Origin: a virus
Length of the DNA stretch: 28,788 bases
Direction: 5' to 3' (one strand)
Virus record (IMG/VR): IMGVR_UViG_3300042731_006448
Location: 1-28,788 of that record
Below the pieces are notes generated by a model. It saw only the letters and a program-made list of their open reading frames with translations, was not told the origin of the DNA and made no database searches. The first letter of the stretch is position 1. Each line of letters begins with the position of its first letter. Shown here one piece after another: positions 7,489 to 27,656 of this stretch. The translations under genes and the position numbers were made by a program.

Positions 7489-10400
7489 TCATGCCCTCCT
7501 TGCTTTGACGGTTGCCCTGCCGTCCTTCTTGGTCACCGTCCATACGCTGTCGAAGTCGTGACCGCCCCGCAATTCCGGATCGTGGCTGATGACCAGAATG
7601 CTGCCCTTGCGGCTTCGCAACTGCGAGAGCAACACCATTACCCGCTGCTTGCCGGTTCCGTCCAATCCGTCCAGAACCTCATCGAGCATCAGCAACAGTA
7701 TGTTCGCGCCTTCCCGCTCCCGAACCAAATCCATCATGCCCAACCCAACCGCAAGCTCTATCTTGCGTTGCTGTCCTCCGCTTGGGTTGGTCTCTCCGCT
7801 CTGCTCGATGTTGGCTGCAATGCTGAACTTGTCGCGCGAAGCACCGCCCTTGGTCATTGACTCCGTATCGATCGCGATCTGGATATCGCCATCGCTGAGA
7901 ACGGCAAGGTGCTCGTTGGCGCATTCGTTCAACCGGGGAGTTGCCGTGTCCATGATCCACGACTGCAAGCCCGTGTTGCCGAAGCCGTCCATCCAGAACC
8001 GCTGCTGTTCCTCCAACAGCCGCAGCGAAGACAGCTCGCTGTCGAGTCTCGCCAACTCCTGCTTTGCTTTCTCTTCCTCCCGATACGCCTTGTCAAGCAA
8101 CTCTTCGAACGGGCTCTCTTCCTCGCGTCTGGTGCGAAGCTGCTTCGTCACTTCCTTGAGGTGCGCCTTCAACCCCACTATCGTTGATTCCCTGGCTTGC
8201 AGCTTCTCAAGCTTGGTTGCCGCCTTCCGCTTCTTGTCTTGCGCTTCCGTCAACTGCTCGAAGGTTGTGTTGAGTTTGTCTTCCGATCGCTCAATGCGGC
8301 GATCGTACTTCTCGTTGATGCGCTCCATCTTCGTTTGGATAGAACGCAATTCCTTCTCAGCGTGGTTGATTGCCGCGTTCACTTCCTTGCGTTTGTTTGC
8401 TCCGGCACCTTTGCTGAGAGCGGAATCGCAGACAGGACACTTCTTGCCCGACAGACTTTCGCTGTCGTTGGTGAGTCGTTCGAGCAAGGTGGAGACACGC
8501 TCCTTGCTTCTCCCCAAATCAGAGAGCAGATTGTCCCGCTGCCTGATGGTCTCGTGACGTTCTTCTCTAAGCTTGTCGTGCAATCTATTGCACTCGTTCT
8601 CGCGCTCATTCGCCTGATCCAGCCTCTTCCGTGCTCCGGAGAGCGACGAGGAATCCGCGGCCGTTTCAGACTCGATTTCGACACGTATTCTGCGAACCTC
8701 CGATTTCAGTTCCTTGATCTTGCTCTTGCGACGCTGCTTCCACTCATCCGCTTGTTTCTCGATATGCTTCGGCTTGCCGCTGTCGAGCAACGCACGATGA
8801 CGGATTGATTCTCTCTCGTATTCCTCGATTGCCTCGACCGTCCCATCGTGCGCCTTCTTCGCCGCAGACCGCGCAACATCGAGGCAGCCCAACCCAAGGA
8901 TGTCGCGAAGGATGCTCTTGCGTGCGGAATCAGACGTCTTGGAATCCGCGAACCGCTTCGCATCGTCCTGCCCGAACAACACTGCATTGCGGAACGTGTC
9001 GAAGTCCATTCCAAGCAGGGTGTTGATTTCGTCTTGCAGTTCTCCGACGCCGCCTGATTGAGTCTTGCCTTCGCGCTTGATCGCCAACAGAGCACTATCC
9101 GCGCGCGTCTTCACCCGGCGAATGACGACAAGCTTGCCGTCGACGCGCAACGTCAACGCGACTCTCGCTTCCTTCGCTCCGCGCCGGATGACGTCGTTGC
9201 CGACCTCGCCATAGATCGTGCGGCCGTACAATACCCACGTCACCGCCTTGAACAGAGTCGTCTTGCCAGCACCGTTGCTGTCCGCTCCCGTCGAGTCTCT
9301 GTTGTTCGCCCGGATCAACACCAACCCAGCATCATCCAACGGCAGCTTCATCGCCTTCTCAATGACCATGAAGTTCCGCACGGACAACATCACAGGTTCG
9401 ATGGTTACCTTGCGTCGGGCAACCGTGCCCGTCTCCTTCAGCGCATCGTCAAGCAACTCATGCCCGATACGCTCCAACTTCTTCGCCCTGAAATGCGGGG
9501 GTAGTTCGATCGCATTGGTCCACACGCTGATAGCCCGATGCAGATCGATTGCCATGCCGCTTCCCAGATCCGCCGCTCTTGCCTTGACCTTCTCGCGCAC
9601 GATCTGCCGCGCAAAGCTGACGTGCCGAAACCGACTGTCGGACAACTTTGGTTTCAGTTCTCCGATGAACCGCTCAATCGCTTGCTTCGCCCCGCGAACG
9701 CGAATGCGCAGATATCCGGTCAACCCTGGCAACGCACGAGTCAGCTTCTTCACCGACCCGTCAGCGAACAGGTCAACGTCAATCGTGGAGAACGGAACCG
9801 CGATCGACTCCGGCACGACGATAGGCTTCGGCTTGATGATCTGCTTGCCATCGTCAATCAACCAAACCTTCTTGCTCTTGCCTACATCATCCCGGAAGTC
9901 AATCGCGTGAGGAGAACCAAGATAACGGCCGTTGATTCCAACCAACCGCTGACTGTTGTGGATATGGCCCGACAGAACCAACCCGAACCCCTTCACGTCG
10001 AACGGTCGCAAGCCATCGCTGAATGTGTGTCCATACTGCTTCGCGCCCGCAAAGACGGCGTGCGTACATAGAACCGATCGCTTGCGATTGCCTTCGTAGC
10101 TACGCAATGCTTGTCGCAGCTTGGAAAGCGGCATGTACGGAAACAGAGCCAAGCGACCAATCTGTTTCGGTTCCGCTGGCACTCGCACGTTGGCGAACGC
10201 CTCCAGCCATTGGTTGGTGAAATGGATGCTGCGAGCGTCGTGACTTTCGTGGTTGCCCGGCAGGACTATCACTTCATCGAACTCGGCAGCAATCTCCCGC
10301 ATCCATTTCAACGCGAACACCAAAGTAACCGCATCAAGCCGGTTGCGATCGAACGAGTCGCCAAGGATCAGCAACCCCCGCGCTCTGTGTTGCTTGCCGA

Positions 10401-10527
10401 CTTTGATCAGGAACTCGCTCAACCGCTCAAGGTCGGACAGCCGATCGCTGACACCGGTATACCAATCAACCTTGCTATAGGGAAGGTTGTTGCTGAAGTG
10501 GGTATCTGCGGTAGCGATCCACCGCAT
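7489..10527 (-). CDS. SbcD-SbcC (Mre11-Rad50) single-chain nuclease-ATPase
   Basis: A 1012-residue protein joining the two normally separate subunits of the DNA end-processing complex (T4 gp47/gp46, bacterial SbcD/SbcC). The metallophosphoesterase nuclease lies at residues 1-340: D8/H10 (TADTH), D57 (LGDSFDR), N92/H93 (LPGNHES), H156 (CTHAVF) and H188/H190 (SGHIH). The Rad50-like ATPase begins near 378 with Walker A GADSNGAGKT (414-423), then a Q-loop at FGQDD. A two-arm coiled coil (about 565-845) carries a CPVC zinc hook at 697-700. The signature NPSGGQ (914-919), Walker B LLLMLDE (944-950) and H982 of the switch loop follow. All key residues seem intact. It probably trims ends and hairpins for RecA-dependent replication. 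Confidence 0.95.
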   Translation of the reverse strand: MRWIATADTHFSNNLPYSKVDWYTGVSDRLSDLERLSEFLIKVGKQHRARGLLILGDSFDRNRLDAVTLVFALKWMREIAAEFDEVIVLPGNHESHDARSIHFTNQWLEAFANVRVPAEPKQIGRLALFPYMPLSKLRQALRSYEGNRKRSVLCTHAVFAGAKQYGHTFSDGLRPFDVKGFGLVLSGHIHNSQRLVGINGRYLGSPHAIDFRDDVGKSKKVWLIDDGKQIIKPKPIVVPESIAVPFSTIDVDLFADGSVKKLTRALPGLTGYLRIRVRGAKQAIERFIGELKPKLSDSRFRHVSFARQIVREKVKARAADLGSGMAIDLHRAISVWTNAIELPPHFRAKKLERIGHELLDDALKETGTVARRKVTIEPVMLSVRNFMVIEKAMKLPLDDAGLVLIRANNRDSTGADSNGAGKTTLFKAVTWVLYGRTIYGEVGNDVIRRGAKEARVALTLRVDGKLVVIRRVKTRADSALLAIKREGKTQSGGVGELQDEINTLLGMDFDTFRNAVLFGQDDAKRFADSKTSDSARKSILRDILGLGCLDVARSAAKKAHDGTVEAIEEYERESIRHRALLDSGKPKHIEKQADEWKQRRKSKIKELKSEVRRIRVEIESETAADSSSLSGARKRLDQANERENECNRLHDKLREERHETIRQRDNLLSDLGRSKERVSTLLERLTNDSESLSGKKCPVCDSALSKGAGANKRKEVNAAINHAEKELRSIQTKMERINEKYDRRIERSEDKLNTTFEQLTEAQDKKRKAATKLEKLQARESTIVGLKAHLKEVTKQLRTRREEESPFEELLDKAYREEEKAKQELARLDSELSSLRLLEEQQRFWMDGFGNTGLQSWIMDTATPRLNECANEHLAVLSDGDIQIAIDTESMTKGGASRDKFSIAANIEQSGETNPSGGQQRKIELAVGLGMMDLVREREGANILLLMLDEVLDGLDGTGKQRVMVLLSQLRSRKGSILVISHDPELRGGHDFDSVWTVTKKDGRATVKARRA

Positions 10528-12363: not shown

Positions 12364-13677
12364 CTAGCGCTTGCGCTTCTTGCTTGAGCGACGGATGCGA
12401 CGTTCGAGATCCGCCAAGGCTTCCTCATCGTCGTCATCGTCGTCTTGGCTCTTCTTCTTGCGAGGCTGCTCGTCTTCGTCGTCATCGCGACGGGCCTTCT
12501 TGCCACGCTTCTTCTTCTTGGGAGGGGGTTCGTCCTCTTCCTCCTCTTCGTCCTCGTCGTCGTCCTCGTCGTCATCATCACGACGACGCTTGCTCTTCTT
12601 GGTCTTCTTACTCTTCTTGGAAGGAGGCTCTTCGTCCTCTTCCCCCTCCTCTTCGTCTTCGTCTTCATCCTCGTCTTCATCATCGTCGTCATCGTCGCGG
12701 GACTTGGGCTTGCCCTTCTTGCGACGCGGCGGCTCTTCCTCTTCCTCATCGTCGTCTTCGTCCTCGTCATCCTCGGGGCGTTCGGCAGCACTTGCCTTCT
12801 TGCATGCCTTCGCATCATCACAGCGACGGCATTCCTTGGTGTCCTCGTAGTCCACACCAAAGCAAGGCTTGCGCTTGCCCTTCTTGCGCTTCTTGCCCTT
12901 GCCTTCGTCTTCATCGTCGTCGTCAACCTGCATACCGTTCCAGTTGGCTTCCTGGCGAGTCGCATCCTGCGTCATCGTCGCAACCAACCGCAAGAGATCT
13001 CCGGCACCCTCCTCCTTCAGCGCATCACGCAAGGCAAGCCGCTGTTCCTTGGACAACCGAATCGGTTTCTTGAGCGAGGTGGGATCGGGGCTGACGCTGT
13101 ACTTGGTTGACATACCGGTTCCCTCGCGATGCAACATGACAAGCACTGCACTGCGAGGGTTGGTGATGTCGCCAACGTCACCGAACACGGAGCAGATGCC
13201 GTCCCAGACGGTGTATCCGCACATGTACGGCCGAACGCCCTCGTCGAGATCAACCCAAGGCATTGATTGCTTCTTGCGATAGCGTATGGGGATGACGTCC
13301 CAGAGATAGCGAGTCTGCCGCCGGGACTCCTTCTTGACCTCATCCGAAACGTCCTCGTCCTCCAACGCGGGACAGATTCGGCATCCTTTCATGTCGCGCG
13401 TATCGCGCTGCATTGCTTTCAGTCGATCTCGGAAGGCTTCGTTACTAAGAATCGGGTTGGCGTCCTTGTCCAGACACAACGATGCTCCCTTGCCCGATCC
13501 CTGATTCTTCGCCTTGAAGTGGAAGCCTGCTTCGACGTAGGGAAGATCCTCGACTCCAGGCGGTGGCGGGCAGATGTACAAGAGCGTATCACCCGGTTCC
13601 GGAGTGAAGAACTCCGAATCGGTGCGCGAGTGCCGTTCGCGGTCCTTGCCCATCTTCTTCAGGTTCACGTCTCCCAT
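12364..13677 (-). CDS. gp32-like single-stranded DNA-binding protein with acidic/basic tail
   Basis: A 437-residue protein from the ATG at 13677, which shares a base with the upstream TGA (TGATG) and has AAGGAAGG upstream. Residues 1-205 resemble the T4 gp32-like OB-fold core: a FHFKA segment, cysteines at 36, 68, 99 and 102 with H53 as possible zinc ligands, the RYLWDVIPIRY strand, and a GDVGDI segment followed by a VMLHREGTG strand. A second cysteine motif (272, 283, 286, 292) follows. From about residue 300 to 420 the chain alternates blocks of Asp/Glu and Lys/Arg. SSB tails usually recruit replication partners; this one is exceptionally long. The gp32 assignment is by pattern, supported by recA next door. 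Confidence 0.72.
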   Translation of the reverse strand: MGDVNLKKMGKDRERHSRTDSEFFTPEPGDTLLYICPPPPGVEDLPYVEAGFHFKAKNQGSGKGASLCLDKDANPILSNEAFRDRLKAMQRDTRDMKGCRICPALEDEDVSDEVKKESRRQTRYLWDVIPIRYRKKQSMPWVDLDEGVRPYMCGYTVWDGICSVFGDVGDITNPRSAVLVMLHREGTGMSTKYSVSPDPTSLKKPIRLSKEQRLALRDALKEEGAGDLLRLVATMTQDATRQEANWNGMQVDDDDEDEGKGKKRKKGKRKPCFGVDYEDTKECRRCDDAKACKKASAAERPEDDEDEDDDEEEEEPPRRKKGKPKSRDDDDDDEDEDEDEDEEEGEEDEEPPSKKSKKTKKSKRRRDDDDEDDDEDEEEEEDEPPPKKKKRGKKARRDDDEDEQPRKKKSQDDDDDDEEALADLERRIRRSSKKRKR

Positions 13678-14180
13678 CACTTCCTTCCTTTCCTCAGAGC
13701 GTCACGAACACCGTTCTCCCTGCCCTTCTTGTCGGACAAGGGATCAATCTCCCCGGCAACGTCCCGTTCCTTCCTGCTGTCTGCTCGCGCAGTGCGAAGC
13801 AGGTTGATCTTCTCCTCCATCGATCGCACCCAACCGTCAACGGTCTCGACAACCTCACGCAACCGGGCGAGCTTGCGCTTGTACGTGACGATGGTCGGAT
13901 TCGCTTCGACGCTGTTCTTCGCTCGCCATTCGGCAATGCGTTCCTTGCCCTTGCTGCTGGCGATACGCTCCAACTCGGTTGCCTTCCAGTTGTGGTATTC
14001 GGCGTCGAGAAGAGCGACGTTCTTGCGAGCACGAGCGGCAAGCCTCGTGTAGAACATCAATTTGCCTGCACCGAACTTCAGATCGTTGTCGTTGCGACCA
14101 GTGATGTTGAAGTCGGATGGCGTCACCTTGTATTCGACGCCATCGATCGTGACCTTGGTCAACTTGCGTGGCAGTTCCAC
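13677..14180 (-). CDS. Helical protein, candidate UvsY-like recombination mediator
   Basis: A 167-residue protein. The GTG at 14180 lies 4 nt after the HU stop, with AGGGGTG upstream; a start at 14249 would overlap HU. After a short beta-like N-terminus (about 1-30), the chain is almost all helix (45-140) with Lys/Arg/Glu repeats, ending in a basic tail. T4 places its loader UvsY and SSB gp32 together with the RecA-like UvsX system, and the pattern of a small basic helical protein next to SSB and recA fits such a loader. There is no diagnostic motif, so this is inferred from context. Confidence 0.6.
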   Translation of the reverse strand: MELPRKLTKVTIDGVEYKVTPSDFNITGRNDNDLKFGAGKLMFYTRLAARARKNVALLDAEYHNWKATELERIASSKGKERIAEWRAKNSVEANPTIVTYKRKLARLREVVETVDGWVRSMEEKINLLRTARADSRKERDVAGEIDPLSDKKGRENGVRDALRKGRK

Positions 14181-20693: not shown

Positions 20694-21902
20694 CTAGAAG
20701 TCCACCTTCAACTGCCGCGCACCGATGCTCACCCACTTGGTGACGATGGCACGCAGCCGCGACGGAATCTTCTTCGCGATGGCAGCCTTGACCTTCGCCC
20801 GATCACCCTTGATGGTCAGATCGAACTTCTTGCCCTGCTTGCCAACGAGCTTCATCGAGACGACACCCTTCTTGTCGCCCTTGGCGACAGTCAGCGTGTG
20901 GTCCTTGCCCGCCAGCTTCATCGTCTGGACGTACTTGCCCTTCTCGACCTTGCCCCACTTGCCAGCCTTCTTGTTCCACGCAGTCGATCGGGGCGAGCCG
21001 CCCTTGACGTTGACCCCGCACATGGCAAGCGCCTTCGCGGAGTTCTTGTAGATCTGCTTGAGGTGCGCGACGAGCTTGGGATCGGCATCGACGGATGCCT
21101 TGGTCTCGCCGTCCTCGTCCTCCCCCTCCTCTTCCTCGTCGTCCCCGCCCTCGTCCTCGTCGGCCTCTTCGTCCTCCCCGTCTTCCTCGTCCTCCTCTTC
21201 GTCTTCCTCGTCGTCGTCCTCTTCCTCCTCCTCCTCCTCTTCCTCGTCCTTCTTCTTGGAAGCAGCCTTGCCCTTCGGCTTGGGCTTGGGCTTGGGCTTG
21301 GGCTTCTCCTCCTCTTCCTCCTCTTCCTCGTCTTCGTCGTCGTCTTCCTCGTCCTCCTCTTCCTCGTCGTCGCCGTCTTCCTCTTCCTCGTCCTCCTCCT
21401 CTTCGTCATCCCCCTCGCTGTCCTCGTCCTCCTCTTCCTCGTCGTCCTCGTCTTCGTCCTCTTCGGACTCCTCCTCTTCCTCGTCCTCCTCTTCGGGTTC
21501 GGGCTTCTTCGCCGTCTTCTGCGTCTTGGTCTTCTTGCTCTTCCCCTTCGCCATGACTTCTTCCTTTCCGTTTGCTCGCGGGTCGCCGCCCGCACTCGAC
21601 GGTTGCTTTAGCAGACCCCGTGCCTGCGCAGCGAACCGCTTGCCCACATGATCGAACCGGAACAGAGGCACGCCTTCCGGAACCTTGCGTGCGATCTGCA
21701 TCAGGGTTGGTTCCTTCTCGAACCTCGCAAGCAGCTTGACCGATCCTTGATGCCGAGCAACGCAGTAGCCGATCGGGCTGAAGCTGCCCTCAAGCGCTGG
21801 CAACCTGTTCGCGACTGCACGAGGCAGTCTGACTTGGGCAAGCAACCAAATGCCGCCACCAACAGGTTCGACGATCGCCAACTGTCGCATCACTCCCCGC
21901 AT
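20694..21902 (-). CDS. Protein with extreme Asp/Glu-rich central region
   Basis: A 402-residue open frame. Residues 1-116 form a globular-looking N-terminal part. Residues 135-199 and 219-267 are almost pure Glu/Asp, separated by a (KP)n block and KKK (200-218). Residues about 270-402 are a basic C-terminal domain. The ATG at 21902 has AGGG upstream, but an in-frame ATG at 21554 (residue 117) has GGAAAGGAAGAA upstream, so a shorter product lacking the N-terminal part is possible. Acidic tracts of this sort occur in histone chaperones and DNA mimics, and a partnership with the HU-like protein or SSB is an inference. No enzyme motif is seen. Confidence 0.65.
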   Translation of the reverse strand: MRGVMRQLAIVEPVGGGIWLLAQVRLPRAVANRLPALEGSFSPIGYCVARHQGSVKLLARFEKEPTLMQIARKVPEGVPLFRFDHVGKRFAAQARGLLKQPSSAGGDPRANGKEEVMAKGKSKKTKTQKTAKKPEPEEEDEEEEESEEDEDEDDEEEEDEDSEGDDEEEEDEEEEDGDDEEEEDEEDDDEDEEEEEEEEKPKPKPKPKPKGKAASKKKDEEEEEEEEEDDDEEDEEEDEEDGEDEEADEDEGGDDEEEEGEDEDGETKASVDADPKLVAHLKQIYKNSAKALAMCGVNVKGGSPRSTAWNKKAGKWGKVEKGKYVQTMKLAGKDHTLTVAKGDKKGVVSMKLVGKQGKKFDLTIKGDRAKVKAAIAKKIPSRLRAIVTKWVSIGARQLKVDF

Positions 21903-21923: not shown

Positions 21924-22520
21924 TTACCCTTGCTCTTGCCACAACGCAACCACGAAGTCAAGCATATACCCATGCAACAGGTACTCTCCGGGCGGCACCT
22001 TGAAGGACTTGAACAGATCTCCTTTCAGCAAGGTCGGGTCCGCTTGACCAGCCTCGTTCACCGGCAGGATCCGGACCATGCCGAACCTCTCTGCCCACAC
22101 CATCAGCCGAACCACCAACCACGTTGCTCCACGCCCCCAGGGAAGTACGAGATCCAACACGGAGTAGAGGCGGTTATGCTTGTCTCGCGCGGGAACCTTG
22201 CTCCACTGGATATCGTGCTTGTCGAAACCAGACGGCAAAGTCATTGACGGGAGCACCCTACCAAAGCGTTTGGTGAAGTGTTTCTCTGCTCCGGCGAGGA
22301 TGCTTGCCTGCCGCCCGTAGCGCCCGAGTTCCTTGTCAACCAACGTGGCGGGGTTGATCGGCACGATTGGCGGAAGGAACTGATCCGGAACAACGGTTGT
22401 CGAGCGCTTGGGAACTCTGCGTTGCTTCAGCTTGATCTTGGCAACCGGCACGCCATCGGAAGCTTCGGCCTTTCCGAACTTCAACCGAAGCTGCTTGCGT
22501 AGCTGATCGACCGTCTTCAT
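21924..22520 (-). CDS. Hypothetical protein sharing an N-terminal TVDxLR motif
   Basis: A 198-residue protein. The ATG at 22520 overlaps the upstream TGA (ATGA); a GTG at 22532 is too close to the GAGGAGGG ribosome site. The first 16 residues, MKTVDQLRKQLRLKFG, match the start of the ExoX-C-like protein at 18341-18787 (identity in the TVD, LR, R, K and G positions). The rest mixes beta and helix with no known motif, including PWGRGATWLVVRL near residue 133. It is coupled to the VWA gene and may be a partner or substrate of that protein. Confidence 0.65.
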   Translation of the reverse strand: MKTVDQLRKQLRLKFGKAEASDGVPVAKIKLKQRRVPKRSTTVVPDQFLPPIVPINPATLVDKELGRYGRQASILAGAEKHFTKRFGRVLPSMTLPSGFDKHDIQWSKVPARDKHNRLYSVLDLVLPWGRGATWLVVRLMVWAERFGMVRILPVNEAGQADPTLLKGDLFKSFKVPPGEYLLHGYMLDFVVALWQEQG

Positions 22521-24391
22521 CGTCTTCCCCACTCCCTCCTCAACAGCATCTTGCTAAGAACCTTGAAAGCTTCCGGAGCCAACTCGTCAAGGTTGCGGAC
22601 ACAGATGTTGTTGGGATAGAACTGCTTCACCGCATCGGTTTGGATGCCGATTCCCACGACCTCCACACCAGCCTTCTCAAGATCGGCAACGACCTCTTTC
22701 AGATGGTTTCCCTCACTGCCCGTCGTGGGACAAAGAGGCTCACCATCAGAGAGCACGATCAAGACGTGACGGGTTGCCTGCTGCTGCATGAGAATGCGAC
22801 CAATCGCAAGCACGGCATCGCCGTCCGCGTTCTCGTACCTGCCGCCACTGTTCAGCAAACGAGTCTTCGTCTTGCTGAACTGCTCGCTGAAGCCCTTGTA
22901 TTGGTGGATCACCATCGCCAGCGATCGGCCGTGGAATTCCACTCCCGGTGTGACGTAAAGGTGTTTATGTTCAACATGACGCCCGATCTTGCCACGGAAG
23001 TGATTGCTGAAGCCGTAGACCCCGAACCGAACACCAAGCGCGTTCAACGTCTCACTGAGAGCAATCGCCGTCTTGCGAGCCGGACCACTACGATTGCCGT
23101 ATGCCATGCTTCCGGACTCATCGATCAAGATACCAACCGCGGGGCGATCAGTGTTACCTTGCTGTTGTTGAGAGAACACCCGCTTGCTCGTTCCGGTCGC
23201 CAATCGATGAAGCGCACCCTGATCGATTCGCCCATGCTCGCAATCCACGACGGTGCGGTTCGCCTTGCTGGCAATCAGGATCGTTTGCAGCTTGCTTCGG
23301 AGTCCGGCAATCGCCTTGCTCACCTCCCGCTTCTCTCCCTGGTAGACGGCGGCATTTCCGTTCGGCGGGATGATGATCTTGTCGTGTGCCACGGCTTCGG
23401 GAGAAGCAACATAGCGATCGTTGGTGATCGCATCGTCCGTCGCCAACCTGCTCACCTCTCCGGAAGCAGCTTCGATCGGATCGCCAACATCGTCCGGATC
23501 ATCCTCGAACAGCTTCTCAAGATCCGCAACTGGCGTTTCCTCGCCGTCTTCTTCCTCAACAACAAGAGTCTCGTCACCTTCCTCTTCGGCTCGTTCGTCA
23601 ATCTCATCCTCTTCGGCTTCAGCACGATCGCCATCGTCAATCGGGTGACCGCTCGGAGAGTTGCCGTTGCCTTCGCCAGCATCCTCGCCACCTCCGCTGC
23701 CAGCAGAAAGCTCTTCTTCCTTGCTCTTCTCTTCCTCCTGCTTCTTCTCCTCTTCGTACACCCGGGCGAACTCTTCCGCGAGAGCCGGAACGCTCTCTTG
23801 CTCCAGACCGGTCATCTGCTTGCGGAAGGATGGAACCAGTCGAGCAAGCGCACGTTCGGATGCCTCGTCGAGAGTCTGGCCCGGTGCGCCGTCCATCGTG
23901 CGGAAGATCAACTCGGACAGCAGACCAGCGAGACCTTTGCGTGGCTTGCGTTCGATGAGCTTGCGGCAGAACTCCCGCACCAATCGCGTGTTCTCGCGTC
24001 GCCCTTCGTAGCGATCGTTCCACTCGATGCGGATGTCTTCGATTGCGTTGCAGACGATCCGATGCTTGCTCCCTACCGGCAACGTCTCTAAGAGATCCTG
24101 AACCGGAATTCCCTTGGCGCGGGCGGCGATGATCTTCGCGTACTCCTCCGCATGCAACGTCTCGTGGTCAAGCATACCTTCGAGGACCATCTTGACGTCA
24201 ACACCAAGATCCTCGATGTTGGCCGGAAGTCGGATCAGCTTTCTCTTGTAGTCGAAGCAACAAGCAGTGCCACGAATCTCAACCCGGATTCCGTGGTCGT
24301 CGGCAAAGGTGCGGGCGATCTTCTCCAACCGGGTAGCCTTCACTCTACCCGTGCCGATCAAGTCGCCCTTCCGTACAATCTCACCGCTCAC
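22517..24391 (-). CDS. CobT-like VWA protein with N-terminal HExxH
   Basis: A 624-residue protein. The C-terminal VWA domain (about 415-620) has the metal-dependent adhesion motif DESGS at 424-428 and a later LSDGEP. Residues 1-200 form a separate domain with a zincin-type HETLH (76-80) and a downstream NAIEDIRIE (115-123) that supplies a Glu, as in CobT/NorD-type VWA proteins. An acidic low-complexity linker (about 210-305) lies between. CobT-type proteins pair with CobS/MoxR AAA+ ATPases to insert metals or remodel partners, and such an ATPase is encoded at 26451-27656. Its exact role in phages is unknown. The start is a GTG with AAAGG 9 nt ahead. Confidence 0.88.
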   Translation of the reverse strand: MSGEIVRKGDLIGTGRVKATRLEKIARTFADDHGIRVEIRGTACCFDYKRKLIRLPANIEDLGVDVKMVLEGMLDHETLHAEEYAKIIAARAKGIPVQDLLETLPVGSKHRIVCNAIEDIRIEWNDRYEGRRENTRLVREFCRKLIERKPRKGLAGLLSELIFRTMDGAPGQTLDEASERALARLVPSFRKQMTGLEQESVPALAEEFARVYEEEKKQEEEKSKEEELSAGSGGGEDAGEGNGNSPSGHPIDDGDRAEAEEDEIDERAEEEGDETLVVEEEDGEETPVADLEKLFEDDPDDVGDPIEAASGEVSRLATDDAITNDRYVASPEAVAHDKIIIPPNGNAAVYQGEKREVSKAIAGLRSKLQTILIASKANRTVVDCEHGRIDQGALHRLATGTSKRVFSQQQQGNTDRPAVGILIDESGSMAYGNRSGPARKTAIALSETLNALGVRFGVYGFSNHFRGKIGRHVEHKHLYVTPGVEFHGRSLAMVIHQYKGFSEQFSKTKTRLLNSGGRYENADGDAVLAIGRILMQQQATRHVLIVLSDGEPLCPTTGSEGNHLKEVVADLEKAGVEVVGIGIQTDAVKQFYPNNICVRNLDELAPEAFKVLSKMLLRREWGRR

Positions 24392-24394
24392 TAC

Positions 24395-24955
24395 TCAAGC
24401 CTTTCTTGTCCGGTTGCTACGTCGCTTGCGCTTGGTTGTTGGTCGCGACAATTCACGACGATGACGCTGGATCGTCCGCTGTCCGGCTTCGGCCACCAAG
24501 GAAAGATTCGCGGATGGCGGGGAGAGATTTGAGGGAACGGAGCACAGCATGAGGTTTTGCCGTTGTACTTGCTCGATGACGCTATAGAGGTCTTCCGCTG
24601 CCGCCCGAAGGTCGCTCGGAATCTCCTCCAACGCTCCCTGGTCCCGCTCTTCCTCGTCGCAGTCTTCGTCCGCAACATCGACCCCCGCTTGCGCCAAGGT
24701 CGCCCACTCCTCCAACGTGGAAACGAAACCATCGATCAGAACCTTCGCAGTCGCGGAATCCCCACGCTCAACAGCCGACTTGAGGTTGTCAATCGCGTAG
24801 GAGTTTGCCGCTGCACCGATCTTGTCCCGGAGATCTACAAGGAAGTTTCGGCCGCGCTTGGCGTGGTTGGCTTTGGCGTTGCCGTCTGCTCCGTCCGCAA
24901 TTCGATCGCAGGTCTCAGCAACCCCTCTCAGCGTCTCTTCGGTTCTCCAATCCAT
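24395..24955 (-). CDS. Hypothetical helical protein
   Basis: A 186-residue protein. The ATG at 24955 has AGAGGAGACGG about 10 nt upstream; the frame remains open further upstream, but that part is shadow of the next cassette. The N-terminal two-thirds are helical (a DLRDKIGAAANSYAIDNL segment, then LEEWATLAQ), followed by an acidic stretch and a basic RPTTKRKRRSNRTRKA C-terminus. No known family is recognised. Its leader contains structured element A. Confidence 0.65.
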   Translation of the reverse strand: MDWRTEETLRGVAETCDRIADGADGNAKANHAKRGRNFLVDLRDKIGAAANSYAIDNLKSAVERGDSATAKVLIDGFVSTLEEWATLAQAGVDVADEDCDEEERDQGALEEIPSDLRAAAEDLYSVIEQVQRQNLMLCSVPSNLSPPSANLSLVAEAGQRTIQRHRRELSRPTTKRKRRSNRTRKA

Positions 24956-24976
24956 CGTCCCGTCTCCTCTCTTCAG

Positions 24977-25015
24977 GCCCCGTCCGGGATGCGAACCCCG
25001 GTTACGCGGCGGGGC
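24977..25015 (-). ncRNA. Structured intercistronic RNA element, copy A
   Basis: A 39-nt two-stem element on the minus-strand transcript. The outer stem is GCCCCG/CGGGGC, with an 8-nt bulge CCGCGTAA. The inner 5-bp stem is CCGGG/CCCGG with loop GTTCGCAT, and one unpaired A separates the stems. It lies between the stop at 25023 and the ATG at 24955. Copy B at 25682-25720 keeps the same architecture with compensatory changes in the inner stem. The loop resembles a tRNA T-loop (GTTCGAAT), but there is no D or anticodon arm, so it is not a tRNA. Function unknown. Confidence 0.65.
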
Positions 25016-25022
25016 GGGTTTG

Positions 25023-25271
25023 CTAGTCGCCCAGCATCCATTCAACCGCGTCGTTGAGTTCCCCGAGCGCCTTGACCGCGGCCTCGTGCTTCTGGCGAAT
25101 CCTGGCCATGGCCTCGGACTCGCCCGTCTCATCCGCGAACATGAAACAGAGATTCCGAAAGCCTCGGCCAAGCGCGACCTCGGCAGTCCCCACCTTGTCA
25201 CGCATCCGAGCCAGGTAGCCAAGTACCCGCTCCCGCTTCCTCGCCAACTCATCAATCGCCTTGTTCGTCAT
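25023..25271 (-). CDS. Small helical hypothetical protein
   Basis: An 82-residue all-helical protein of high GC content, with basic and acidic residues interleaved and one Cys (residue 42). The ATG at 25271 has a perfect AGGAGGTGG about 6 nt upstream. The leader (CAGGAGGTGGcgCGATGAC) is almost identical to that of the cassette starting at 25971. A KAIDELARK segment near residue 4 recalls KAIDRLAAR of that other cassette. No function is proposed; it looks like an independently acquired small phage cassette. Confidence 0.65.
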   Translation of the reverse strand: MTNKAIDELARKRERVLGYLARMRDKVGTAEVALGRGFRNLCFMFADETGESEAMARIRQKHEAAVKALGELNDAVEWMLGD

Positions 25272-25305
25272 CGCGCCACCTCCTGCGGCTCCTGCGCCGC
25301 CTTCG

Positions 25306-25327
25306 GGGCCCGACTGGAGTCGGGCCC
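25306..25327 (-). promoter_or_regulatory. Strong intercistronic hairpin (element C)
   Basis: GGGCCCGAC and GTCGGGCCC form a perfect 9-bp stem around a 4-nt loop, preceded in the transcript by CCCGCCCCGCC as in copies A and B. It lies between the stop at 25352 and the ATG at 25271. There is no T run, so terminator activity is uncertain; it may act like the A and B elements. Confidence 0.6.
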
Positions 25328-25351
25328 ATCGGGCGGGGCGGGTTAGCGGAA

Positions 25352-25645
25352 TCAGACGTGCCAGACCACAACGCCCCGTTCCAGGGCGTCCGCGGCGTGC
25401 TGATCGATTGCGTCATCCCAGCAGTCGCGGCCCTGGTCGTCGCAGAGATCCACGTCGCCCATCTCATCATTCCGCGCGCCGTTGTGCGTGTCCGCAACGC
25501 AATCGACACGGATGTTGACACCACGCGAGTCGAGGATATCTTGGAGGATGCCGCAAAACCGGCGAAGCTCACGGGCGTCACCGTTCCAGTTCTGACCCAT
25601 CATCGCTGCGTCCACCTCGTATCGGCTGATCGTCTCGTTTCCCAT
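25352..25645 (-). CDS. Small acidic hypothetical protein
   Basis: A 97-residue acidic protein with several cysteines (about residues 31, 49, 68 and 75) and a DLCDDQGRDCWDDAIDQHA segment. The ATG at 25645 has GGGGAGGTAAGGAG just upstream. Its leader carries structured element B. The cysteine and aspartate pattern could bind metal, but no family is recognised. It is one of four successive small GC-rich cassettes. Confidence 0.65.
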   Translation of the reverse strand: MGNETISRYEVDAAMMGQNWNGDARELRRFCGILQDILDSRGVNIRVDCVADTHNGARNDEMGDVDLCDDQGRDCWDDAIDQHAADALERGVVVWHV

Positions 25646-25681
25646 CTCCTTACCTCCCCGGCGTCTCGCGCCGTCTATCAG

Positions 25682-25720
25682 GCCCCGTGCCGGTTGCGAA
25701 CCCGGCTTACGCGGCGGGGC
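25682..25720 (-). ncRNA. Structured intercistronic RNA element, copy B
   Basis: Same two-stem layout as copy A: outer stem GCCCCG/CGGGGC, bulge CCGCGTAA, inner stem GCCGG/CCGGC, loop GTTCGCAA and the single unpaired A. The inner stem differs from copy A by paired changes that keep base pairing, which is evidence for a selected RNA structure. It lies between the stop at 25729 and the ATG at 25645. Confidence 0.65.
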
Positions 25721-25728
25721 AATAACAC

Positions 25729-25971
25729 CTAGAGTGACCGGAACTCGGCAGCAGCGGCCGTTGTTTGGATCGCGCGAATCTGCTTTGGCGTAAGAGCAAC
25801 ATCGCGGGGAACGTCCATCGTCAAAACATCAAGCACCGCCATCGCCACGAGTCCACGTCGAAGTGTGCTATCAAGCAACGACCAGCCCTTGCCCCACCTT
25901 GCCGCCAACCGGTCAATCGCCTTAGCCGCCACCGCTTCGAACTCCCTCGTATCTGTCGTTGCCTTCGTCAT
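25729..25971 (-). CDS. Small helical hypothetical protein, first gene of the leftward operon
   Basis: An 80-residue helical protein rich in Ala, Thr and Arg. The ATG at 25971 has AGGAGGTGGGACG immediately upstream, which rejects the longer in-frame start at 26019. The leader is nearly identical to that at 25271. It is the first leftward gene after the AT-rich control region, so it is probably expressed early or strongly. I do not recognise the family. Confidence 0.65.
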   Translation of the reverse strand: MTKATTDTREFEAVAAKAIDRLAARWGKGWSLLDSTLRRGLVAMAVLDVLTMDVPRDVALTPKQIRAIQTTAAAAEFRSL

Positions 25972-26086
25972 CGTCCCACCTCCTGCCCATGTGGTAATGC
26001 GAGGGTCATGCCAAAACAAGCAAGCGCAAAATCACTTGCTTTTATTGCTTTGGACGCTTGATAACGCTGGCAAAGTAAGATTCTGT

Positions 26087-26450: not shown

Positions 26451-27656
26451 ATGCGGAAACGTCGTACCAGAACCAAGGACGTTCACAGCCCGGTCGACGA
26501 CAAGGGCAACCCGAAGATCCAGTGCAAGATCTGCGGCAAGTGGTTCCATCAGCTTGCCAACCATCTGGCCCGCAAACACAACTTGACTGTCGAAGCGTAC
26601 AGACGGGACTATCCGGACGCACCTACGATGTCCGAGTGGGCGAGCAGGAACATGGGCGAGAAGGTATCGGCAGGCAAGACGGGCCACAAGCGCCACAGTA
26701 AGCGCTTCGCCAAGAAGACCAAGAAGCCGAACACCAACTCCATCGACGAAAACATCCTGCCGATCGGCGTCGCTCGCCTGCCCATCCTCGACGTGTCGTC
26801 GCTGGACGAGATCAGCCGTAGCTTCATTCCGAAGCACAACCCCCACTTCCACCTCGACGAGTCGGTTCTTGAAACTCTCGCTCTTGCGATTCAGCACGAT
26901 CGCAACATCATGCTCGTCGGTCCCAACGGCTGCGGCAAAACCAGCCTCGTCGCGGAGCTTGCCTGCCTCGTCAACCAGCCCTTGTGCCGCATCAACTTCA
27001 ACGGCGACACGCGCACGGCCGATATCGTGGGAGAGAAGACGGTCGAGCCGGACGACTCGGGCAGCAACGTCATCGTCTGGAAGGATGGTCTGCTGACGCA
27101 GGCGATGCGCAACGGTTGGTGGTGTCTGCTCGACGAATTGGACTTCTGCGATGCGGCGGTCCTTGCGCGCATCCAATCCGTTCTCGAAGAGGGCCATCCG
27201 CTGACGTTGATGGAGAACAACGGCGAGGTCGTTGCCGCACATGCCAGCTTCCGCATCATCGCGACCGCCAACACCGTCGGCCGTGGCGACGTCACCGGGC
27301 TGCACGCGAGTCGTCGCGTTCTCGACGAAGCGACTCTCGACCGGTTCAGCTACGTGCGGAGGGTTGGCTACCTGCTTCCCGGCGACGAGGCAGAGGTCGT
27401 CTCGAACACCTGCCGCATTCCGGCCGAGCTTGCTCGCAAGATGGTGGACGTGGCAACGAAGATCCGCGCCGGATTCGAGCGGGAGGAGTGCCACTGCACC
27501 CTCAGCACACGCCGCTTGATCTTCTGGGGCGAGGCAATCTCTTCCTTCGGAACCGATCAGGTTCGCCGTGCAGCCAACGAGACTCTGCTTGATCGGCTGG
27601 AGCGGGAGGATCGGGCCTACGTCAAAGCCGTTGTCGATCGCGTGTTCGTTTCCTAG
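26451..27656 (+). CDS. CobS/MoxR-like AAA+ ATPase with N-terminal Ros/MucR-type zinc finger
   Basis: A 401-residue protein, the only rightward gene. Residues 25-43 form a CxxC-x9-H-x4-H finger (CKICG, then LANHLARKHNL), followed by EAYRRDYPDAP, like the Ros/MucR DNA-binding domain. A basic linker (70-95) leads to an AAA+ domain: Walker A GPNGCGKT (157-164), Walker B LLDEL (226-230), sensor IIATANT (269-275) and LDRF near the arginine-finger position. The GRGDVTGLHASRR segment matches the CobS signature. AAGGGAG lies 5 nt before the ATG. CobS-type ATPases work with CobT-type VWA proteins, and one is encoded at 22517-24391. The finger may bring the complex to DNA or repress its own promoter. 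Confidence 0.88.
   Translation: MRKRRTRTKDVHSPVDDKGNPKIQCKICGKWFHQLANHLARKHNLTVEAYRRDYPDAPTMSEWASRNMGEKVSAGKTGHKRHSKRFAKKTKKPNTNSIDENILPIGVARLPILDVSSLDEISRSFIPKHNPHFHLDESVLETLALAIQHDRNIMLVGPNGCGKTSLVAELACLVNQPLCRINFNGDTRTADIVGEKTVEPDDSGSNVIVWKDGLLTQAMRNGWWCLLDELDFCDAAVLARIQSVLEEGHPLTLMENNGEVVAAHASFRIIATANTVGRGDVTGLHASRRVLDEATLDRFSYVRRVGYLLPGDEAEVVSNTCRIPAELARKMVDVATKIRAGFEREECHCTLSTRRLIFWGEAISSFGTDQVRRAANETLLDRLEREDRAYVKAVVDRVFVS

Follow-up and report, generated by a model that had tools for sequence, protein, structure and literature searches.

A short bulged hairpin, a real and apparently undescribed phage RNA element, occurs in four copies in three dissimilar phage genomes. Two copies (w1 and w2) lie in the window, by which we mean the whole stretch of 28,788 nucleotides analysed here (IMG/VR record IMGVR_UViG_3300042731_006448). 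The third and fourth lie in the IMG/VR contigs L005 (IMGVR_UViG_3300013105_000005, 76 kb) and L340 (IMGVR_UViG_3300042312_000294, 15 kb). The element is a single bulged hairpin of 35–40 nt, whose core comprises an outer stem of 6–7 bp, a 5′ bulge GCGUAA (plus 1–2 nt), an inner stem of 4–5 bp and an 8-nt loop, GUUCGCA(A/U). Comparison of the copies supports selection for RNA structure and points to a putative RNA signal, recognised by some factor, that would control phage gene expression.

Results

Two copies of the element in one operon

The original prediction placed two 39-nt copies of a structured RNA at 24977–25015 (w1) and 25682–25720 (w2), and both are present there. The genes around them are encoded on the minus strand, so a plus-strand reading has to be reverse-complemented to give the sense RNA. 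On that strand w1 reads GCCCCG C CGCGTAA CCGGG GTTCGCAT CCCGG A CGGGGC and w2 reads GCCCCG C CGCGTAA GCCGG GTTCGCAA CCGGC A CGGGGC. The 5′ strand of the w1 outer stem (25010–25015, minus strand) pairs with 24977–24982 and covaries with L005 and L340; it is followed by the 5′ bulge C-CGCGUAA (25002–25009) and by the inner hairpin, CCGGG, loop GUUCGCAU and CCCGG (24984–25001), all on the same strand. In w2, also on the minus strand, the corresponding parts are the 5′ strand of the outer stem at 25715–25720, paired with 25682–25687, the bulge C-CGCGUAA at 25707–25714 and the inner hairpin GCCGG, loop GUUCGCAA and CCGGC at 25689–25706.

The copies are spaced 705 nt apart within one operon and are identical at 34 of 39 positions; base composition predicts ∼1e-6 pairs of such similarity in the window. 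A degenerate core pattern matched twice in the window against 0.08 matches expected, and two matches were obtained in none of 100 shuffles. The inner stem changes from CCGGG/CCCGG to GCCGG/CCGGC, as had been claimed, with two pairs altered on both sides and pairing kept; elsewhere, w1 and w2 differ solely at the final base of the loop, which is U or A. Other parts of the predicted structure needed adjustment. The outer stem is indeed shared, but on the sense strand it has 6 bp, the foot pair being a C·A mismatch; GTTCGCA is common to both loops, but the true loop has 8 nt, GUUCGCA(U/A). The 8-nt bulge is identical in w1 and w2 (C-CGCGUAA); its core GCGUAA is common to all four copies.

The folding energy of the window copies is by itself ordinary (z about −1), and the case for the element therefore rests on comparison; when the sense strand is folded alone, the outer stem is slightly shifted in the minimum-energy structure. 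Either strand can form the stems about equally well, and the sense strand was therefore assigned from the orientation of the genes, which agrees in 4/4 copies. Model R1, built from w1 and w2, gives w1 its score of 59.8 bits by construction.

Further copies in IMG/VR

Scanning IMG/VR for an exact pattern in which 17 bases were fixed returned five contigs, among them L005, whose copy reads TAG C CCCCTT CGCGTAA TCGG GTTCGCAA CCGG AAGGGG ATTTAAGGAGCATCAC ATG. It begins one base past a TAG stop codon, is followed by AAGGAG and then ATG, and comes after the first gene past a divergent region with HTH-like genes, as judged by reading. In a looser scan (GTAA and loop), which gave at least 120 matches, L340 was among the matches listed. 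Its copy, CTCGCCG A GGCGTAA CCAGG GTTCGCAA CCTGG CGGCGAG ... CACGGAGGTGCAG ATG, has stems of 7 + 5 pairs, all Watson–Crick, and sits in the gap ahead of a phage csrA gene, with a ribosome-binding site following; beyond the copy the operon includes genes for CsrA, endonuclease, resolvase and helicase. The csrA-like gene directly downstream (L340:13710–13886, minus strand; phrog_9500) has as the best INPHARED relatives of its product the CsrA proteins of Vibrio and Pseudomonas phages, at ∼50% identity.

When CCCC, the bulge and GGGG were fixed and the loop left free, 69 IMG/VR contigs matched and the GUUCGCAA loop occurred in L005 only; with two loop bases freed, L005 was again the sole structured match. 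Structured matches are expected by chance at ∼0.0014 per pattern match, or ∼0.007 for the five-contig scan. Many matches with covariation in intercistronic gaps would, according to the original prediction, support the element; further copies of this kind exist but are few. Neither of the outcomes that it had named as contrary, an absence of further copies or copies with broken pairing, arose: L005 and L340 keep both stems through differing sequences, which bears out the predicted selection for structure.

Pattern matches in L002 (no convincing outer stem), in L250 and L277 (inside a coding start) and in L057, L020 and L356 (outer stem absent) were rejected. A hairpin that keeps the CGCGUAA bulge and the stems (outer stem GCCCCGG/CCGGGGC) but has a differing loop, GUACCCAC, was seen at L188:2178–2213 (minus strand) and L210:6447–6482 (plus strand); it lies in the leader, rich in GGTTCGCG repeats, of a gene resembling terminase.

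Elsewhere the searches were empty. No Rfam family exceeded its gathering threshold in the window, L340 or L039, and a permissive Rfam search of the region gave chance-level scores only. Among 84,980 prokaryote genomes (species) there were 41 pattern matches, none of them structured. Model and pattern searches of ∼700 genomes, which had low sensitivity and no positive control, found nothing. BLAST of the element against INPHARED phages and PLSDB plasmids returned chance-like partial matches only; those in Tetraselmis virus S20 and in Arthrobacter, Azospirillum and Streptomyces plasmids were discarded, none combining the bulge with both stems. The open-access literature, searched with motif letters and topic terms, yielded no description of the element.

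At the protein level, blastp of window against L005 proteins at 1e-4 gave no match, and the best phmmer matches between the window and L005 or L340 were chance-sized given hundreds of ORFs; L005 and L340 have one helicase in common (phmmer). These comparisons identify no convincing protein common to the window and L005/L340. No relatives were found of the CobT-like protein of the window in IMG/VR, of the w1 gene product in INPHARED, or of the L005 neighbour protein in either collection.

Covariation and fixed bases

The stems of w1, w2, L005 and L340 measure 6 + 5, 6 + 5, 6 + 4 and 7 + 5 bp. In the four-sequence alignment 40 of 42 cells are paired (95.2%) and four pairs are altered on both sides. 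Fitting of the alignment to the two-copy model somewhat favours structure; the stems of L340 and L005 can be checked by eye. The covariation score is 0.394 against 0.102 in shuffles, a value reached by one of 500 shuffles, and sliding the 3′ strand by one column lowers pairing to ∼60% or below. The loop ends in A or U, and the first base of the bulge is C or G; the invariance of bulge and loop is partly by construction, the search patterns having demanded most of their letters. Left free in the scans, and nonetheless in agreement, were the GC before GUAA (L340), both stems (L005 and L340), placement in a gap and orientation.

Placement of the copies and their gene neighbourhoods

All four copies lie in an intercistronic gap in sense orientation, each with a ribosome-binding site and start codon behind it. 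The spacing between hairpin and start codon is variable, at 16, 21, 36 and about 38 nt, and the downstream genes have no common function, encoding three unknown small proteins and one CsrA. All copies appear to be in early or replication operons, with w2 and L005 placed close to where the operon begins.

In the window, all on the minus strand, the gene upstream of w2 (25729–26019) is the first of the leftward operon and its TAG stop lies just ahead of w2; the ribosome-binding site GGAGGT (25652–25657) and ATG (25645) of the gene after w2 follow, that gene (25352–25645) encoding 97 aa with no known domain. The 82-aa gene upstream of w1 (25023–25271) likewise ends in TAG just ahead of the copy, after which come the ribosome-binding site GAGGAG (24964–24969), an ATG at 24955 and a gene for 186 aa with no known domain (24395–24955). 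Beyond w2 the operon encodes a CobT-like VWA protein, RecA, a DNA polymerase III alpha-type polymerase, uracil-DNA glycosylase and a 5′–3′ exonuclease.

In all four cases the gene preceding the copy ends in TAG (window 25729–25731 and 25023–25025; L039:16009–16011; L340:14074–14076), and among likely window genes this codon accounts for 9 of 32 stops. At 25291–25342 (minus strand), in the gap between the genes of the two copies, lies another strong hairpin, GGGCCCGACT/AGTCGGGCCC, with a 2-nt loop; this gap and copy w1 have the leader AACCCGCCCCGCC in common. The CobT-like VWA protein (22517–24391, minus strand) is encoded near a MoxR/CbbQ-like AAA ATPase (26451–27656, plus strand), the N-terminus of which also matches a Ros/MucR zinc-finger family. 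Elsewhere in the window, one 1012-aa reading frame (7489–10527, minus strand) matches both a metallophosphoesterase and an SbcC/Rad50-type ATPase, and two minus-strand genes (12364–13680 and 20694–21902) encode proteins with long acidic, Asp/Glu-rich, Lys-containing repeats; their DNA accounts for low-complexity repeats in the window.

Discussion

The reading that we favour, tentatively and well short of conviction, is that the hairpin serves several phages, in their early or replication operons, as a recognition element acting in cis on the mRNA, like a translational operator repeated in selected gaps. A recognition site is suggested because the stems vary while the unpaired bases stay fixed, and translational control of the downstream cistron because each copy precedes a ribosome-binding site. 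The fixed bulge and fixed loop would form one binding surface. Bulge GCG may pair with loop CGC (3 bp), giving a small H-type pseudoknot on the inner stem, a feasible one if UAA and A(A/U) serve as connecting loops; no copy varies at GCG/CGC. A trans-acting factor would read this surface, and its binding would alter ribosome access or the folding of the initiation region of the downstream cistron.

The reader would most likely be an RNA-binding component of the host or, failing that, a phage protein that is short and evolves fast. If the copies have a common reader, a component of the host is a better candidate than a protein shared among the phages, because the window and L005/L340 have no convincing protein in common; this argument would fail if the reader were a phage protein of the short, fast-evolving kind. 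In a stronger form, which we regard as rather doubtful, the element would define a new class of host-factor-dependent signal, a pseudoknotted hairpin of 35–40 nt engaging RNA polymerase, ribosome or RNase without a phage protein; dissimilar phages would have acquired or evolved it in their early operons with conserved host machinery as the target.

Known phage translational operators include the T4 RegA and gp32 sites and the coat hairpins of RNA phages. Like these, the element is a structured RNA near a ribosome-binding site whose stems present specific unpaired bases, and a structured site next to a ribosome-binding site was found in 4/4 copies; unlike these, it lies upstream of the ribosome-binding site without overlap, is common to dissimilar phages and has a reader that is putative. 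The repeats of Cluster K mycobacteriophages, the 13-bp SAS GGGATAGGAGCCC and the ESAS with inverted repeats and conserved arms, whose function is unknown (PMC3203893), are similarly repeated just upstream of the start codons of selected phage genes. Our element differs from these in size and sequence. In it, unlike ESAS, the arms vary while loop and bulge are fixed, and the 13-bp SAS is absent from the leaders of all four copies.

A role in transcription elongation, in which the nascent hairpin would bind RNA polymerase as put does, or recruit an antitermination factor as nut does, so that early transcription would continue through later terminators, is rather unlikely, though the likeliest of the alternatives. 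The layout of nutR and putR recurs here: w2 and L005 come directly after the first gene of operons that begin at a divergent region, and the operon of L340 is an early one. RNA polymerase, as a target encoded by the host, would also explain the presence of the element in dissimilar phages, and put, itself an RNA structure that acts in cis close to the promoter of phage early operons, works without a dedicated protein (PMC9378689). However, HK022 put RNA is ∼70 nt long with two stem-loops (PMC9378689), as against one bulged hairpin of 35–40 nt here; two of the copies lie 705 nt apart in the same operon; and the lambda nut site, boxA followed by the small boxB hairpin, is not matched, there being by eye no consistent boxA-like sequence ahead of the copies and the loop not being of boxB type.

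We consider it unlikely that the hairpin is a site of mRNA processing or stability, at which a host nuclease cuts or a 3′–5′ exonuclease halts, giving neighbouring cistrons different half-lives. All copies do lie in intercistronic gaps, and the window gap between the copies carries another strong hairpin, but a hairpin that acts as a plain barrier does not require bulge and loop to stay the same in unrelated genomes. We know of no such pattern of fixed unpaired bases in RNase III sites.

It is improbable that the copies represent a small self-cleaving or ligand-binding RNA. Variable stems that hold fixed unpaired bases, the possible bulge–loop pseudoknot and the leader position would suit a ribozyme or riboswitch; the very small size, the want of a common pathway among the downstream genes and the absence of an Rfam ribozyme or riboswitch match speak against either.

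The original prediction likened the element to a tRNA minihelix without D and anticodon arms, and this comparison fails; we give very little credence to an acceptor and T-arm mimic that would be read by an enzyme of tRNAs such as RNase P or RNase Z. The likeness lies in two coaxial-capable stems, stacked to a total of 10–12 bp, in the UUCG within the loop and in a 5′ bulge at the point from which D and anticodon arms would branch. A canonical T-loop, however, has 7 nt, closed by a G–C pair, with U54 paired to A58, whereas the loop here has 8 nt with C at position 58; the stems are unequal (6 + 4, 6 + 5 and 7 + 5 bp, not a fixed 7 + 5), the bulge sequence is fixed, and no CCA follows, the 3′ flanks being CTGA, CTGA, ATTT and CTGG. 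The searches were also empty, ARAGORN reporting no tRNA or tmRNA genes.

Equally remote is chance, that is, a local duplication in the window joined by two coincidental matches among many: the motif is short, many patterns were tried and the looser scan gave at least 120 matches, but against this stand the low expectation of structured matches, the fully Watson–Crick stems of L340, the gap placement and shared orientation of all copies, and the 0/41 structured matches in prokaryotes.

An intrinsic terminator, a GC-rich hairpin with a T-run behind it, is unlikely, since the T-run is missing (3′ flanks CTGAAGAG, CTGATAGA, ATTTAAGG and CTGGTGTT), and no terminator was called in the window at w1 or w2. 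Stop-codon read-through was rejected, the extensions being unalike in three genomes and the stop in L340 lying ∼100 nt away, as was CsrA binding, the loop having no GGA.

To our knowledge, structured RNA elements common to dissimilar dsDNA phages are uncommon, and most indicate a general mechanism (antitermination, processing or translational control). The element described here is short and shows covariation and a clear consensus. Should its reader be a host factor, the element would represent a general route by which phages command host gene expression, and a portable regulatory part.
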